Assembly (NCBI GenBank): GCA_945887955.1
Contig: CAMCZO010000014.1
Span: 1-41,606 of the forward strand
DNA length: 41,606 bases
Direction of reading: 5' to 3'
Source: Chitinophaga pinensis
GTDB taxonomy: Bacteria; Bacteroidota; Bacteroidia; B-17B0; Aurantibacillaceae
Below, piece after piece: positions 6,124-11,743 of this stretch (position 1 is its first letter; every line of letters starts with the position of its first letter). Both the position numbers and the translations under genes were made by a program. The notes under the pieces were generated by a model that was not told the DNA's origin, made no database searches, and was given only the letters and a program-made list of their open reading frames with translations.

Positions 6124-6840
6124 TTAGTCTTCGCTTCTGCTTAATGAATAAATAACTAAACCAAAACCAATTTTATTGATGGCATCAGCAATGTTATATA
6201 CTATGTCCATTGCAGCTACTGCAGCTTTAGGATCAGTAACTAATTGAATTCCAAATAATCCTCCTGGAGTTCCTAAAATATAACCTAAAGGATAAATAGC
6301 CCAACCTACTAAAACAAACCAAGCTAAAACTCTGGTAGCTTTTGCTACTTGCGGACCAGCTGTTTGAGCTAGTTGAGCAACTTCACCAAACCAAATTAGG
6401 TAAGCAATATAAAAATACGCAGCACCTGAAATTACTCCCCACATTACGCTATTATCACGAGAAATTGTCTCACCAAAATAACCAGTAACTAACATAACTA
6501 AAGAAGCAAAAATTAACTTCCATAATAAACCTATTTTAGCACCTGCTTTTTTGGTAATTAAATAAAATTCAACACACATTAATGGCACTGTTAAGATCCA
6601 GTCAACATATCTAAAAAAAGTTGGCGATTCGCCTGTTTCTAAATTATAACCTCTCATGTAGTAGTAATGCACTGCTGCAATAAAAGTTATTAGTCCAGAA
6701 ACTAAAACTGATGTTCTCCATTTTTGAGAAGTGTTACTTAACTCAAAAAAGAAGAAAACTGATGCGGCCATCATGGCCATTGTTCCGATAAAAAACGTAA
6801 AGGCTACGTAATTATCTGTTGCAATTTTTAAATGTTCCAT
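6124..6840 (-). CDS. Proton-pumping rhodopsin (proteorhodopsin/xanthorhodopsin type)
   Basis: A 238-aa seven-helix retinal protein, a light-driven outward proton pump by its motif residues. Helix C reads RYVDWILTVPLM, giving Asp80 (proton acceptor), Thr84 and Glu91 (donor), the DTE pattern of proteorhodopsins. His58 matches the His that pairs with the acceptor. Lys223 in helix G is the retinal Schiff-base lysine, with Asp219 as counter-ion. Met88 occupies the spectral tuning site (Leu in green, Gln in blue marine types), so green absorption is expected. Gly135, in MWGVIS of helix E, aligns with the xanthorhodopsin Gly that leaves room for a carotenoid antenna, where classic proteorhodopsin has Phe. 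It ends the minus-strand phototrophy block, 266 bases after the DoxX-like pair, and probably has its own promoter in that gap. Confidence 0.95.
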   Translation of the reverse strand: MEHLKIATDNYVAFTFFIGTMAMMAASVFFFFELSNTSQKWRTSVLVSGLITFIAAVHYYYMRGYNLETGESPTFFRYVDWILTVPLMCVEFYLITKKAGAKIGLLWKLIFASLVMLVTGYFGETISRDNSVMWGVISGAAYFYIAYLIWFGEVAQLAQTAGPQVAKATRVLAWFVLVGWAIYPLGYILGTPGGLFGIQLVTDPKAAVAAMDIVYNIADAINKIGFGLVIYSLSRSED

Positions 6841-7006
6841 TTTTTTATTTATTAAAATTTATATAGTCCTACTCTTAAGGATTTTCAGTTTCTCCCTGTT
6901 TTTTATCGGTTTATCAGCTCCAATTTTATTTAAAACAATTTAATATGATAAATGTTTATTTAATTGTTAAAATATTTAACAAGTATATTTAATTCATTTT
7001 AAATTT

Positions 7007-7106: not shown

Positions 7107-7445
7107 TTATTGTATTGCCGCCAAAAAAATATAAGCATTTAAGCACATATAAAATAGGGCCGGGAATGATATCCAAATGCTATCTTTTGATTTTATTCTT
7201 ATTATTAAGCCTGATAACATAAGTAAGGCAAGGCCTATAGACGATATTATTAAAATTGGAGTAAATTTTAGTCCGATTAATAGGCCCATGGCCCCTAAAA
7301 GTTCTAATATTATGGTTAATAGTCCAAGTTTATCTAAATTAAATCGTTTGAATTCGTTTTTCATATGGGGCGATAAAAAATATGAAGCAACATAAGTAAA
7401 GAAAGAGATGCTTGATAATAAAATACAAATTTCTTTTAAATTCAT
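7107..7445 (-). CDS. DoxX-like membrane protein (second of a coupled pair)
   Basis: A 112-aa integral membrane protein with four predicted helices and charged turns, the size and layout of the DoxX-like family. I start it at the ATG at 7445 (MNLKEICILL), not at the upstream in-frame ATG at 7481. The 7445 ATG overlaps the stop codon of the preceding gene as ATGA, which implies translational coupling, and the longer form would add a polar leader before the first helix. DoxX-like proteins are small quinone- or redox-associated membrane proteins in the few studied cases; here the function is unknown. It lies between the carotenoid-processing gene and the rhodopsin gene on the same strand. Confidence 0.7.
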   Translation of the reverse strand: MNLKEICILLSSISFFTYVASYFLSPHMKNEFKRFNLDKLGLLTIILELLGAMGLLIGLKFTPILIISSIGLALLMLSGLIIRIKSKDSIWISFPALFYMCLNAYIFLAAIQ

Positions 7446-7786
7446 AAAGGGTATTTTGATGCAATTGCTATAAAAGCACATAAAATCAAAAGGAATAGAG
7501 AAGGCAGATGTTTTATAAAAATATTTTTTATTTTAAAATGAAAATATTGAGCGACAATCATGAAAAGGCCCATAAGAACTGAGGAAACAAAAACAAATGA
7601 CGAAAACCAAATACCAACAAAAAGCAATGTTGCTAAACAAATTTTTGTTGCCCCTACAAAATTGCGGGTTAAATCGCTTAGACCAAATTGCTTAAAGTCT
7701 TTAAGCACATTATCAAACCTAAAAATCCAAACATAAGCAACAGATAGTGCTATAGTTATTTGTGTTAATTTTATAATGTATTCCAT
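7442..7786 (-). CDS. DoxX-like membrane protein (first of a coupled pair)
   Basis: A 114-aa protein with four predicted membrane helices. It has a FGLSDLTRNFVGATKICLATLL segment of the kind found in the second helix region of DoxX-like proteins. It is about the same length and layout as the next gene (7107-7445), whose ATG overlaps its stop by four bases; the two are probably an old tandem duplication forming a heteromeric pair. No catalytic residues can be identified. The 92-base gap upstream separates it from the multi-spanning membrane protein at 7879, with no terminator between them. Confidence 0.7.
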   Translation of the reverse strand: MEYIIKLTQITIALSVAYVWIFRFDNVLKDFKQFGLSDLTRNFVGATKICLATLLFVGIWFSSFVFVSSVLMGLFMIVAQYFHFKIKNIFIKHLPSLFLLILCAFIAIASKYPL

Positions 7787-7878: not shown

Positions 7879-8784
7879 TTATTTATTGCTTTTTTCCAAT
7901 GCAATTTGCTTTTCAAATTGATTATGTATTATAAGTATAAGTAAGCCAAAAATAATAGCAGTTAAAATCAAGGCTGTATTTAATAAACCACTAACAGAAA
8001 AAGATACCCTAATTAAGATAGTAGATATTATAAAGCCAGAGTTTCTAATGACCTTATGAAAATCAACAGTATGAAAAAAAGAAAATAATAATAAAACAAC
8101 ATCTGCAATAATTAAAATAGTAAAAAATTGTTCGAAGAAAATATTATTGATATTTTTAAATGAGACTTCTGAATCTGAATTAAGCTCAACAGAGCTTATT
8201 AGCCAATTTATAAATGAATAAATAGCAACAAAAAACAGAATGGGCACTAAAGAGGCAGCAATTATTTTTTTAATTTTTATAAATCTTACAGTGCCTTCAA
8301 TTTGAGAATCTTCGTTTTCATCGGTTCGGTATCTTTTTTTACTTTGTTTGTAAAATTGTAAAATAAGAAAAAAAAGTAAAACGGAAGCCACTAAATCATA
8401 TGTAAACTGTAAATCATATTTTATTTTAAACCAGTCAGATGAAAGTGACAAATTAGAAAGATCTTTGAATAATCGTCGGATAATAATAAGGGTAATGATT
8501 TCATATTGCTTGCTGATATATGTTGTAATAGATTTTGGCAGATAATGTATTAATAAGTATACCTCATAAACAAGAATAAATGAAAAAGGCGTATAAATTG
8601 CAGCTATAGGATTTTTAAGTAAATCTGATGGATTATTTAGCGAAATAATACCAAAATCAACGAGGTAAATTATTAATAGATGAATAAGGAAGCTGGCAAT
8701 GGCTATTAATAAAATAACACGTTCACTTCTTTTTTTAGTTTTCTCCGAAAGAAGATTATGATAAAGAAGCTTAATTTTCTCCAT
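7879..8784 (-). CDS. Multi-spanning membrane protein of unknown function
   Basis: A 301-aa protein that I do not recognise. It has about seven to eight hydrophobic segments, near residues 23-47, 58-83, 92-103, 127-145, 172-196, 216-238, 245-268 and 269-287. A charged cytoplasmic-looking loop (KKRYRTDENEDSQIEG) lies between the fourth and fifth. The stretch YEIITLIIIRRLFKDLSNL places charged residues inside a hydrophobic segment, somewhat like a voltage-sensor or ion-pathway helix, but this is only a visual impression. It lies on the minus strand between the lycopene cyclase-Blh gene and the DoxX-like pair, so a link to the rhodopsin system is possible from position alone. Confidence 0.65.
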   Translation of the reverse strand: MEKIKLLYHNLLSEKTKKRSERVILLIAIASFLIHLLIIYLVDFGIISLNNPSDLLKNPIAAIYTPFSFILVYEVYLLIHYLPKSITTYISKQYEIITLIIIRRLFKDLSNLSLSSDWFKIKYDLQFTYDLVASVLLFFLILQFYKQSKKRYRTDENEDSQIEGTVRFIKIKKIIAASLVPILFFVAIYSFINWLISSVELNSDSEVSFKNINNIFFEQFFTILIIADVVLLLFSFFHTVDFHKVIRNSGFIISTILIRVSFSVSGLLNTALILTAIIFGLLILIIHNQFEKQIALEKSNK

Positions 8785-8956: not shown

Positions 8957-11059
8957 TTAATTTTCAAGAACTTTTTTCTTATAAAATAAATGCATAAGTA
9001 TAACGTGGGGCAGGCTTATGCAGGCTAAAAAAATAAAACCATCTGCCTGCAAACGATATAAATCAAAAAGCCCAATGAAATCAAAAATAAATAAGGCTAA
9101 GAAAAGAGACAGGGCGCCAATTAAATACGGTAATGCTTTTTTATACAAAGGTATAGAATTGATATGTAATTTAAGTTTTAAATGCCCCCAGGCATTTAGG
9201 CTGTGCTGACAAATAAAATATAGAGAAAAAGCAAGAATTAATGGCATTTTACAGCCCACAATAAGAATTAAAATCAGCATTAAAAAACCGCCTTTTTTAA
9301 ATAATAAAAATTCACATGAAAGATAAACTAAGCTAATTAGAGACAAAGGAATTTTAAACATGATTAATTCATTCGTATATAATTTAATATTTTCTAAGCC
9401 TCCAATTTTTGAGATAACTTCAATTGATTCATTCAAATGAGTAAAAATAATAAATAATAAAATAGATAATCCTATTAGAAAACTCCTTATGTAGATGCTG
9501 ATGCTATTCAAATTAATTCCCATTTCCTCTAATTCGGATTCTCCAAAATGAAAAGAAGAATATAGTATAAAAAATATAATCGAGAATAATGGAAAGTAGT
9601 GCCAAATTAAAAAATAGAATATAATTAGTAATAAATACTTTAAAATAAATTGAAACAAAGAACTTTTATTCTCAATTTTCAGCAGGTGATCAACTGAACC
9701 ATGAGGAATTCCAACCAACAATAAGCCGATAATTATTAAAAAATATCCGAAATTAAGTGATGTAACATTACTGTAATAGTGTATTATAAAATAAATTAAA
9801 ACACTAACAAATGAAAATAAATAACGCAAACCATTTGTTTTTTTTAAATGTATAAATAAAGACTTTATAAAAGTAAAGATGGGCAAAGATGCAAATATTT
9901 TAAGCTCTTGTCCAACAGTTGTTTTTTCATCTAAAAATAAAAAGATAGTATATATATTTTGACTTTTAAACAAGTTCGTAAAAATCTTTTTTCCTTTTTT
10001 AGGCCATTTAAGAAGTATAGTAAGCAAAAGAATATCGTAAAACCGAAAACGACTTTTTTTATGGAGTGATATTTGATTAAAAGGTTTAAAGTTTTCGTTG
10101 TAGATATTATCAGAAACTATTGAAGCAAAATTATACATGTTTTTAAATCCATATCCTGTGCTTGGCTTAATTAAATTTGCCTTAGCACCAGTATTTAAAA
10201 CGCCTTGAAAATCATTTTTAGGATGTTGATAGCTTGTCATTGGAATACAACCAGATTCTTCAGCAACAATTTCATAGCTGCCATATTCAGCTTTTATTTT
10301 TTTATCTAAAATTTTCTTAGCGTAATCCAAATCAATTTTTTCTGATCCAAATCGGGTTAATTCAATTAATGATTCTTTTGATGAGAAAGGGAGTGTGTAA
10401 AAAAATTGTGTAAAATCACTTTGGTCTACATTAAAGTTCATCATTTCAAAAGAATCTTTAAGAAAAACAGGCTTTTCACATTTAATGTGTAGTCCATAAA
10501 ATGATTGATTTAAGTATATTTCATTAGAACTTAGTTGAGAATATGGAGGGGTTCTACTATCAAATATGAATTTGGATTTTAATGTCCCACCTGAAGTATT
10601 TAAATGATAAATTTCATCAACAGAAATTATTGTATCTGCATAAAAGCTTAAGATAGGAATGTCTTCGTTTACTAGTTTATTTATTATGTGCTCATATAAA
10701 TCAATACTTTTAATAAAATAATAGGGTTGTTTTTCAATATTTTGTGAAGGAGAGCCATTAACTTCAATGGCAGTATAATAATGACTTATTATAGGCTTAA
10801 GATCATTAACAATTGAATCATTTGGTGAGGCCCAAAAGCAATAAGTTTTATCATTTGTATTCTTTTTTGTTGGCTCAACAACTGCGATTTTTTTATTTGA
10901 AATCAAGCCTCTTTTTAATAGAGATAAAAGAATTAAACTATTGCCTGCGCCAAGGCCTATAAAAAGGAAATCATAAACCGTTTCATTATTAATAAAAGTA
11001 GTGGATGATTTTGTTTTATTCATAATATGATCAATTAAAGGTAAATCATAAAACAACAT
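8957..11059 (-). CDS. Fused lycopene beta-cyclase and Brp/Blh beta-carotene 15,15'-dioxygenase
   Basis: One uninterrupted 700-aa frame with two complete enzymes. Residues ~28-405 are a flavin-type lycopene cyclase (CrtY family): nucleotide-binding FIGLGAGNS (33-41), DSR (167-169), QSFYGLHI (185-192), LPFSS with LIE (Glu233), EESGCIPM (267-274) and KPSTGYGF (298-305). Residues ~411-695 are a multi-helix Brp/Blh domain with its conserved histidines: GIPHGSVDH (450-458), SSFHFGE (501-507), QHSLNAWGH (618-626) and LPHVILMH (683-690). Together they would turn lycopene into beta-carotene and cleave it to retinal for the rhodopsin 2.1 kb downstream. In known systems crtY and blh are normally separate genes. 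The MDxxVDQ motif of relatives reads MNFNVDQ here. A second start at 11023 (MNKTKSS) is as likely as 11059. The gene faces the lipoprotein gene at 11118 across a short divergent gap. Confidence 0.92.
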   Translation of the reverse strand: MLFYDLPLIDHIMNKTKSSTTFINNETVYDFLFIGLGAGNSLILLSLLKRGLISNKKIAVVEPTKKNTNDKTYCFWASPNDSIVNDLKPIISHYYTAIEVNGSPSQNIEKQPYYFIKSIDLYEHIINKLVNEDIPILSFYADTIISVDEIYHLNTSGGTLKSKFIFDSRTPPYSQLSSNEIYLNQSFYGLHIKCEKPVFLKDSFEMMNFNVDQSDFTQFFYTLPFSSKESLIELTRFGSEKIDLDYAKKILDKKIKAEYGSYEIVAEESGCIPMTSYQHPKNDFQGVLNTGAKANLIKPSTGYGFKNMYNFASIVSDNIYNENFKPFNQISLHKKSRFRFYDILLLTILLKWPKKGKKIFTNLFKSQNIYTIFLFLDEKTTVGQELKIFASLPIFTFIKSLFIHLKKTNGLRYLFSFVSVLIYFIIHYYSNVTSLNFGYFLIIIGLLLVGIPHGSVDHLLKIENKSSLFQFILKYLLLIIFYFLIWHYFPLFSIIFFILYSSFHFGESELEEMGINLNSISIYIRSFLIGLSILLFIIFTHLNESIEVISKIGGLENIKLYTNELIMFKIPLSLISLVYLSCEFLLFKKGGFLMLILILIVGCKMPLILAFSLYFICQHSLNAWGHLKLKLHINSIPLYKKALPYLIGALSLFLALFIFDFIGLFDLYRLQADGFIFLACISLPHVILMHLFYKKKVLEN

Positions 11060-11074
11060 AAATAAACAAAGGAT

Positions 11075-11105
11075 TTTGAATTTTCAAAAAAAACTAATAA
11101 TTTTG
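11075..11105 (+). promoter_or_regulatory. Bacteroidota-type promoter for the small lipoprotein pair
   Basis: TTTG at 11075-11078 and TAATTTTG at 11098-11105, separated by 19 bases. This matches the -33/-7 consensus (TTTG, about 19 bases, TAnnTTTG). The ATG of the first lipoprotein gene follows 12 bases later. Confidence 0.55.
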
Positions 11106-11117
11106 AAAAAAACATTT

Positions 11118-11423
11118 ATGAAAAGAATTATTTTACTTTTATTTATTATTGCAACGTTTTTACCATCTTGCAAAAAAGCTTACACCTGCGATTGCACGGT
11201 AACAGAAAAAATAACTGATGATGCTACTGGAGATGTAGAAACCTTTGTGTATAAAAATAACACTTCTGTTTATAGTGAGAAGATGACAGAAGCTCAGGCC
11301 TCATCAGCTTGTGAACATGAAGAAACTGGCATTCAATCAAATTTTGATGCACTGATGACAGATAATGGCACAAACCCTCCTGACCCGAATGATGTTGTTA
11401 CCACAGATTGTAAAATAAAATAA
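11118..11423 (+). CDS. Small lipoprotein, tandem copy 1
   Basis: A 101-aa protein. The frame is open from 11076, but the ATG at 11118 gives a proper lipoprotein signal (MKRIILLLFIIATFLPSC), with the lipobox Cys at about residue 18. It also leaves room for the promoter that overlaps the longer version. The mature part begins CKKAYTCDC and contains YSEKMTEAQASSACEHE, both shared with the next gene, and ends near a Cys (TTDCKIK). Four cysteines after the lipidated one suggest two disulphides in the periplasm. I do not recognise a family. The next gene, 17 bases downstream, is a clear paralogue, and the two are surely co-transcribed. Confidence 0.75.
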   Translation: MKRIILLLFIIATFLPSCKKAYTCDCTVTEKITDDATGDVETFVYKNNTSVYSEKMTEAQASSACEHEETGIQSNFDALMTDNGTNPPDPNDVVTTDCKIK

Positions 11424-11440
11424 AACATAAAAATCTAAAC

Positions 11441-11743
11441 ATGAAAAATTCTCATTTAATTTTAATTTCTATAGTTGTTTTGGCAATTATTTCTTGTAAA
11501 AAAACATATACTTGTGATTGCGAAACCGATACTGTAATCTCTTTTATGGGATCAGGCGATTCAATATATTCTAAATCTACAACAGTTCCTTATAGTGAAA
11601 AGATGACAGAGAATCAAGCCCAATCTGCTTGTGATCACGAAGCTGCCTCTATAAAAACAACAGAAGAAAATGCCATTAAGAATCAAATTCCTCCCGGACT
11701 AGGAATATCCACGCAGGTTTCTACTACTTGTGATTTAAAATAA
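11441..11743 (+). CDS. Small lipoprotein, tandem copy 2
   Basis: A 100-aa paralogue of the gene at 11118. It has a lipoprotein signal peptide ending in the lipobox AIISC, then the shared CKKTYTCDC motif, the shared YSEKMTENQAQSACDHE motif and a final Cys in STTCDLK. The cysteine pattern is conserved between the two copies while the loops differ, which points to the same disulphide-bonded fold. The function is unknown. It ends 29 bases from the convergent urocanate hydratase gene, with no clear hairpin between them. Confidence 0.75.
   Translation: MKNSHLILISIVVLAIISCKKTYTCDCETDTVISFMGSGDSIYSKSTTVPYSEKMTENQAQSACDHEAASIKTTEENAIKNQIPPGLGISTQVSTTCDLK

Follow-up and report, generated by a model that had tools for sequence, protein, structure and literature searches.

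Within the window, the 41,606-nucleotide stretch of Bacteroidota DNA analyzed here, one reading frame appears to encode two successive enzymes of retinal synthesis, a FAD-dependent lycopene cyclase (CrtY) and a β-carotene-cleaving Blh enzyme. Does this frame specify a genuine bifunctional protein, and what would such a protein do in rhodopsin-bearing bacteria, where retinal and other carotenoids compete for one precursor?

Architecture of the CrtY-Blh fusion

The gene and its parts occupy the following positions of the window.

8957..11059, minus strand: crtY-blh fusion gene, 700 amino acids
9866..10972, minus strand: CrtY domain, residues 30–398 (PF05834; invariant columns in 54 fusions and in the comparison with stand-alone CrtYs)
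9728..9865, minus strand: junction, residues 399–444 (from the structural model and the alignment of 54 fusions)
8981..9727, minus strand: Blh domain, residues 445–693 (PF15461; invariant histidines in 54 fusions)

The fusion gene is a single frame of 700 codons that runs from an ATG to a TAA on the minus strand (11059..8957). A preceding sequence-only reading had described one frame holding both CrtY and Blh; its coordinates, the two domains, and all motifs it named were confirmed, and the strand is corrected here to minus. An AlphaFold2 model shows disorder over residues 1–22, and homology to related proteins begins near residue 13, so Met-13 may be the real start.

Both domains are covered almost completely by their Pfam profiles, with scores far above the curated cut-offs. 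Lycopene_cycl (PF05834) matches residues 30–398 (E = 1.6e-36, 126.6 bits, profile positions 1–376 of 380), and BCD (PF15461) matches residues 445–693 (E = 3e-31, 109.4 bits against a cut-off of 28, profile positions 2–267 of 267). The Blh assignment is shared by NCBIfam TIGR03753 (Brp/Blh; 114.2 bits, cut-off 95.25), whereas the CrtY half stays below the NCBIfam cut-offs of TIGR01790 (88.3 versus 209.5 bits) and TIGR01789 (59.4 versus 215.2 bits). Because the separate CrtY that this genome has in its xanthophyll cluster likewise falls below both, these two cut-offs evidently miss the CrtYs of Bacteroidota.

The CrtY half features the FAD site GLGAGN, the motifs NDKTYCFW, EESGCIPM, and KPSTGYGF, and Glu-233 within LIELTRF. 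Gly-35, Gly-37, and Glu-233 (the glutamate of the E-x-T motif) are invariant in fused and stand-alone CrtYs. The Blh half carries GIPHGSVDH, SSFHFGE, QHSLNAWGH, and LPHVILMH; His-453, His-504, His-541, His-619, and His-685 are invariant in the 54 fusions, and His-626 is nearly so. Measured against the nearest relative (locus L021), dN/dS is 0.17 over the CrtY half, 0.35 over the junction, and 0.26 over the Blh half, and purifying selection thus acts on both halves.

The AlphaFold2 model, calculated for all 700 residues from the alignment of 54 fusions, has a mean pLDDT of 89.6 and a pTM of 0.83. Its C-terminal Blh part is all-helical. The best matches among solved structures and folds are flavoproteins of the geranylgeranyl reductase type, as expected of CrtY; for the Blh half we found no solved structure similar by sequence, and the top fold matches were all CrtY-type flavoproteins. 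Scans for promoters and terminators returned nothing above shuffled sequence.

Distribution of the fusion

A scan of one genome per species identified 120 relatives, 80 of which were kept. Seventy-six of these contain an intact fused frame, with identities of 34–88%. The closest, L021 (88% identity), has the same neighbors in the same order. The fusion is therefore not the rarity that it might have seemed from the single locus. The search of viral contigs found no relative of the fusion, and plasmids returned unfused CrtYs only, the best with 28% identity over half of the query. Two fusion genes of the Bacteroidota type occur in metagenome-assembled genomes labeled Parcubacteria (L027) and Streptomyces (L074), a probable case of mislabeling or mis-binning.

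Of an even draw of 395 Bacteroidia genomes, 72 contain a Blh. After contig ends and frameshifts were checked, 37 of the 72 have the fusion, 7 have crtY and blh as separate neighbors, 26 have an unlinked Blh, and 2 hold fragments. In four genomes that had appeared unfused (G298, G320, G360, and G397), the fused gene proved to be interrupted by a contig end or a frameshift, and these four are counted as fused. The fused share of Blh-carrying Bacteroidia species is thus about half, a species-level estimate for this sample, in which some genera were drawn repeatedly. For the genome comparisons below, a genome of the same genus as the window (G004) was added, bringing the fused genomes to 38. A sample of the whole phylum revealed one further genus with the fusion, belonging to another class (G580, G595, and G687), and there, too, a rhodopsin gene adjoins it. 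A 958-residue frame with Blh in G605 was rejected as an additional fusion; this high-GC genome has crtYcd and blh as two genes, and most of the long frame is spurious.

Origin of the fusion

Trees were built separately for each half. In both, the fused lineage forms one clade with support of 100/99 (25 rows for CrtY; 27 rows for Blh, including three secondarily unfused members), an indication that neighboring crtY and blh genes fused a single time, long ago. As their sister group, the fused CrtY halves have separate CrtYs from adjacent crtY-blh pairs (100/96), among them those of L115, L118, and L126, and the xanthophyll CrtYs form a clade distinct from the retinal-linked ones (98/93). The nearest outgroup of the fused clade is less certain in the Blh tree than in the CrtY tree.

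The junction retains the dimensions of its presumed parents. The invariant residues Phe-397 and Gly-450 are separated by 49–54 residues in all 54 aligned fusions, separate CrtYs extend ∼10 residues beyond the equivalent phenylalanine, and separate Blhs begin ∼41 residues before the equivalent glycine. Judged by these lengths, the fusion is a plain end-to-end join without an added linker. In the model, the C-terminal helix of CrtY (residues 394–407) is followed by a helix (residues 411–429) that leads into the Blh part.

The fused clade includes three unfused members (L052, G019, and G256). In L052 (L052:359-2478), a close relative nested within the clade, crtY and blh are separate genes whose stop and start codons overlap (ATGA) precisely at the junction, an arrangement that we interpret as a natural fission. 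G019 and G256 kept the Blh half alone. Fused-clade Blh genes without a CrtY half lie at L139:7851-9773 and L122:1480-2343; in L139, a rhodopsin gene lies 130 nucleotides upstream of blh, in the place that CrtY would occupy. Within the genus of the window, the gene is present in few species, and these are scattered over different subclades, which suggests transfer or repeated loss.

A second lycopene cyclase usually accompanies linked crtY and blh

The most informative result concerns the remaining cyclases of these genomes. The genome of the window has a second CrtY (G000:C36:19146-20297) in a separate crtB-crtI/crtD-cruF-crtZ-crtY cluster that includes a CruF-like hydratase and a CrtZ-like hydroxylase. 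By analogy with published clusters (PMC11855829), this is a gene set for monocyclic xanthophylls of the myxol or saproxanthin type, the predicted product of the cluster.

Counting cyclases of the families CrtY (PF05834) and CrtYcd (PF18916), we found a second cyclase in 35 of 38 fused genomes (class sample plus G004), namely 10 CrtYs and 25 CrtYcds and never both, and in all seven genomes with separate adjacent crtY and blh. By contrast, none of the 26 genomes with an unlinked Blh has a second cyclase, and each of the 26 has exactly one. Taken together, linkage by fusion or adjacency coincides with a second cyclase in 42/45 genomes versus 0/26 unlinked ones (Fisher p = 2e-16, uncorrected for relatedness, so that the association is weaker than this raw value). 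Counted by genus, a second cyclase occurs in at least one member of every linked genus (25 of 25). The position of the second enzyme can be filled by either family, as in G046, where CrtYcd replaces CrtY in the same place of the cluster (crtD, cruF, crtZ, crtYcd). The sequence-only reading had surmised that the fusion might fix the retinal:carotenoid output next to its rhodopsin; this contrast between linked and unlinked genomes supports a dedicated retinal output, and an effect on the retinal:carotenoid ratio would be a further possibility.

Another 35 fused genomes, a set that shares at least two members with the first, behaved alike, with a second cyclase in 30 of the 33 new ones. Of the genomes without a clear second cyclase (three of 38 in the class sample, three of 33 in the second set), most are incompletely assembled or lose part of the cluster at a contig end. 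They include, from the class sample, G318 (77% complete, no CrtI detected) and G379 (CruF near a contig end) and, from the second set, G757 (no CrtI seen) and G762 (a cut-off CrtY beside CruF).

The real departure from this two-pool pattern is genus g280, which belongs to another class. In its three near-complete genomes the fusion is the sole cyclase of the CrtY and CrtYcd families searched (CruA-type cyclases lay outside the search), and CruF is absent, so that this genus looks like one with a retinal-only pathway. At locus L194:4758-7990, from a genus of another class, the fusion occurs together with a rhodopsin but with neither a second CrtY or CrtYcd cyclase nor CruF in the genome, a possible retinal-only pathway.

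Among the linked genomes 43 of 45 have CruF, as do 18 of 26 unlinked ones (p = 0.004). This excess fits, without proving, a need for a retinal branch that is driven by CruF. As the single cause of fusion CruF was rejected: it is commoner in linked genomes, yet 18/26 unlinked ones have it as well, so that competition by CruF alone does not force fusion.

Rhodopsin and neighboring genes

Downstream of the fusion gene, the window contains the following features.

7879..8784, minus strand: 301-amino acid membrane-type protein, no Pfam or NCBIfam family
7442..7786, minus strand: DoxX-like small membrane protein (PF13564)
7107..7481, minus strand: DoxX-like small membrane protein (PF13564)
6862..6928, minus strand: DUF805 RNA (Rfam RF03081, cis-regulatory; 56.9 bits versus a gathering score of 51.1)
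6124..6840, minus strand: proteorhodopsin (PF01036) with D-T-E motif, methionine at the tuning position, glycine at the antenna (fenestration) position, and the retinal-binding lysine

The fusion gene is thus followed on the same strand by the gene for the 301-residue protein, two DoxX-like genes, and, 2.1 kb downstream, a rhodopsin gene. With its D-T-E motif, non-glutamine tuning residue, and retinal lysine, the rhodopsin is by sequence a green proton-pumping proteorhodopsin, which bears out the earlier placement of the fusion beside a rhodopsin gene. This linkage is general. Flanks of 1.5 kb or more were available on both sides of 59 fused loci, and in 48 of these a rhodopsin gene occurs no more than 2.5 kb away, on the same strand in 45 of the 48 and with a median gap of 74 nucleotides. 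The adjacent rhodopsin is absent in 11 of the 59. Fused loci with no rhodopsin nearby are L030, L046, L059, L060, L063, L069, L076, L083, L086, L088, and L096, several of them from marine Flavobacteriales.

All 102 rhodopsins examined, whether linked to fused, paired, or solo Blh, possess the D-T-E proton-pump motif, methionine at the tuning site, and glycine at the antenna site. By alignment to the bacteriorhodopsin sequence, the antenna position is presumably that of Trp-138. In published work, a carotenoid antenna site is recognized by a glycine at the Trp-138 equivalent (PMC12308411). We discarded this glycine as a marker separating fused from unfused systems, since all 102 proteins have it.

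The DUF805 RNA ends 21 nucleotides before the start codon of the rhodopsin gene. Of 31 further loci scanned, 12 have this RNA, or the related DUF805b, immediately before the rhodopsin gene (L004, L022, L024, L025, L029, L031, L033, L043, L066, L080, L084, and L139). The DUF805-type RNA is a structured leader of Bacteroidota proteorhodopsin genes. Homologues of the 301-residue protein, a family with motifs such as PFSxLLxYEVYLL and VIRNSG, occur near the fusion in L021, L023, L043, L071, L079, L082, L084, L085, and L087 and often directly adjoin it. The two overlapping DoxX-like genes (7107-7786, minus strand) are kept in this arrangement in L021. The same locus also keeps two paralogous small lipoprotein-like genes (11076-11743, plus strand), which are divergent from the fusion gene.

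Proposed function

The comparisons above establish the fusion itself, its intact domains and conserved residues, its single origin, its linkage to rhodopsin, and the presence of a second cyclase. We consider it likely that the fusion is a bifunctional lycopene-to-retinal enzyme, dedicated to retinal and supplying the downstream proteorhodopsin; both activities and retinal as the main product are predictions from the sequence. In the proposed mechanism, the protein would be membrane-bound. The N-terminal FAD-dependent CrtY domain would close both ends of lycopene to give β-carotene, and the C-terminal Blh domain would cleave β-carotene into two retinals, which would go to the proteorhodopsin encoded just downstream. 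The gene arose once, by end-to-end fusion of neighboring crtY and blh, and would then have spread through the Bacteroidota. Other carotenoids would be made by the separate cyclase of another cluster, leaving the fusion as the retinal-dedicated branch.

With cyclization and cleavage joined in a single protein, lycopene would be drawn away from the competing enzymes CruF and CrtZ, which would otherwise turn it into hydroxylated monocyclic pigments. In Escherichia coli, the CrtY of Nonlabens alone converts lycopene to β-carotene, and together with CruF it yields mainly the monocyclic 1′-hydroxy-γ-carotene (PMC11855829). Since CruF diverts the product of this CrtY, a cell with CruF risks starving Blh of its bicyclic substrate and has reason to protect a β-carotene branch.

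Whether β-carotene passes physically from one domain to the other is a separate matter. Such channeling is speculative, and we regard it as a minority prospect; a junction of constant length and a confident model of the entire chain are both compatible with it. An equally minority prospect is the wider view of a widespread, undescribed retinal synthase that would channel β-carotene and keep retinal apart from a competing xanthophyll pathway with a cyclase of its own, which would let the cell control the chromophore of a rhodopsin system independently of the antenna or protective pigments of that system.

The strongest alternative keeps both activities and dispenses with channeling: fusion would only fix a 1:1 ratio and co-localize the two enzymes in the membrane, and β-carotene would leave the protein and be shared with CrtZ, CruF, and others. 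We give this reading somewhat less than an even chance. Separate adjacent crtY-blh pairs in related genomes appear to do the same job, again together with a second cyclase, so that linkage seems enough and direct transfer is not required; the fission in L052 points the same way. The narrow range of junction lengths over 54 proteins and the pTM of 0.83, however, fit a fixed arrangement of the domains, although neither proves transfer.

The CrtY half might instead be a finishing cyclase that closes the second ring of γ-carotene delivered by the xanthophyll cyclase, with lycopene not its substrate. Nearly every fused genome of the class has a second cyclase that could supply γ-carotene, and some Bacteroidota cyclases, CrtYm of Flavobacterium P99-3 and CrtYcd of Algoriphagus, have been described as monocyclases (PMC11855829, PMC2889829). 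The fusion of g280, however, has no other cyclase of the families searched beside it and would there have to use lycopene directly. A strict division is also improbable, as Nonlabens CrtY accepts both lycopene and γ-carotene (PMC11855829). We therefore regard the finishing role as unlikely.

Could one half be catalytically dead and serve as anchor or regulator of the other? The conserved Asp-208 is replaced by asparagine in 40% of the fusions, including that of the window, and the third glycine of the FAD motif is also replaced. Asp-208 is nevertheless kept in the other 60%, and the third glycine gives way to asparagine or alanine, the former being found in proteobacterial CrtY as well. Together with the invariance of Glu-233 and other conserved residues and the low dN/dS of the CrtY half, this makes a dead half very improbable. 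Chance, or an assembly or frameshift artefact joining two neighboring genes, is excluded for practical purposes: neighboring crtY and blh genes whose ends overlap do occur, but 76 intact fused frames come from independent assemblies, form one clade in both halves, and share a constant junction length, and the dN/dS values (0.17/0.26), pLDDT (89.6), and pTM (0.83) agree.

On the preferred reading, a bifunctional enzyme dedicated to retinal, the chemistry is ordinary, and the architecture is solid and apparently unreported. Its presence in about half of the sampled Blh-carrying Bacteroidia species would make a two-step lycopene-to-retinal enzyme a recurrent way of separating the two carotenoid pools, and a cyclase dedicated to retinal could be recognized simply from the genome, as a Blh-linked CrtY accompanied by a second cyclase. 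Engineered microbes might use the fusion as a ready-made part for the production of retinal or vitamin A, and it might serve as a natural test case of substrate transfer between membrane enzymes.

Comparison with known systems

No account of an FAD-type CrtY joined to Blh was found in the open-access full texts searched. The architecture is apparently unreported, and it may well be visible in domain databases without comment. The sequence-only reading had held that characterized gene sets keep crtY and blh separate, in agreement with the literature searched. Against its own proposal it had set the existence of many published fused homologues: fused homologues are plentiful in public genomes, and none was found described in the papers searched.

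The nearest described protein is the predicted CrtI-CrtB-CrtYcd-Blh of Thecamonas trahens, which also places a lycopene cyclase and a C-terminal Blh in one polypeptide and for which direct conversion to retinal was likewise suggested (PMC10016063). It differs in being a eukaryotic, four-domain protein, known from prediction only, with an unrelated membrane-type CrtYcd and a Blh close to haloarchaeal forms (PMC10016063). Other natural fusions of consecutive carotenoid enzymes, CrtIB in rhodopsin clusters of Verrucomicrobiota (PMC10284914) and CrtYB and CrtIBY of fungi and thraustochytrids (PMC10016063), cover other steps and contain no FAD-type CrtY-Blh.

The stand-alone CrtY of Nonlabens spongiae from clusters of the myxol/saproxanthin type (PMC11855829) is a homologous cyclase, and the genome of the window has one of this kind (G000:C36). 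Stand-alone CrtYs of Bacteroidota differ from the fused CrtY half by forming a distinct clade, belonging to a xanthophyll cluster, and having no Blh. A counterpart in gene organization is the separate adjacent crtY-blh of rhodopsin clusters (XR-crtY-blh, PMC13043013), which shares the enzymes, their order, and the rhodopsin linkage with the fusion but encodes two polypeptides. The separate pairs found here (L101, L104, L113-L115, L118, and L126) have, as in fused genomes, a second cyclase elsewhere in the genome.
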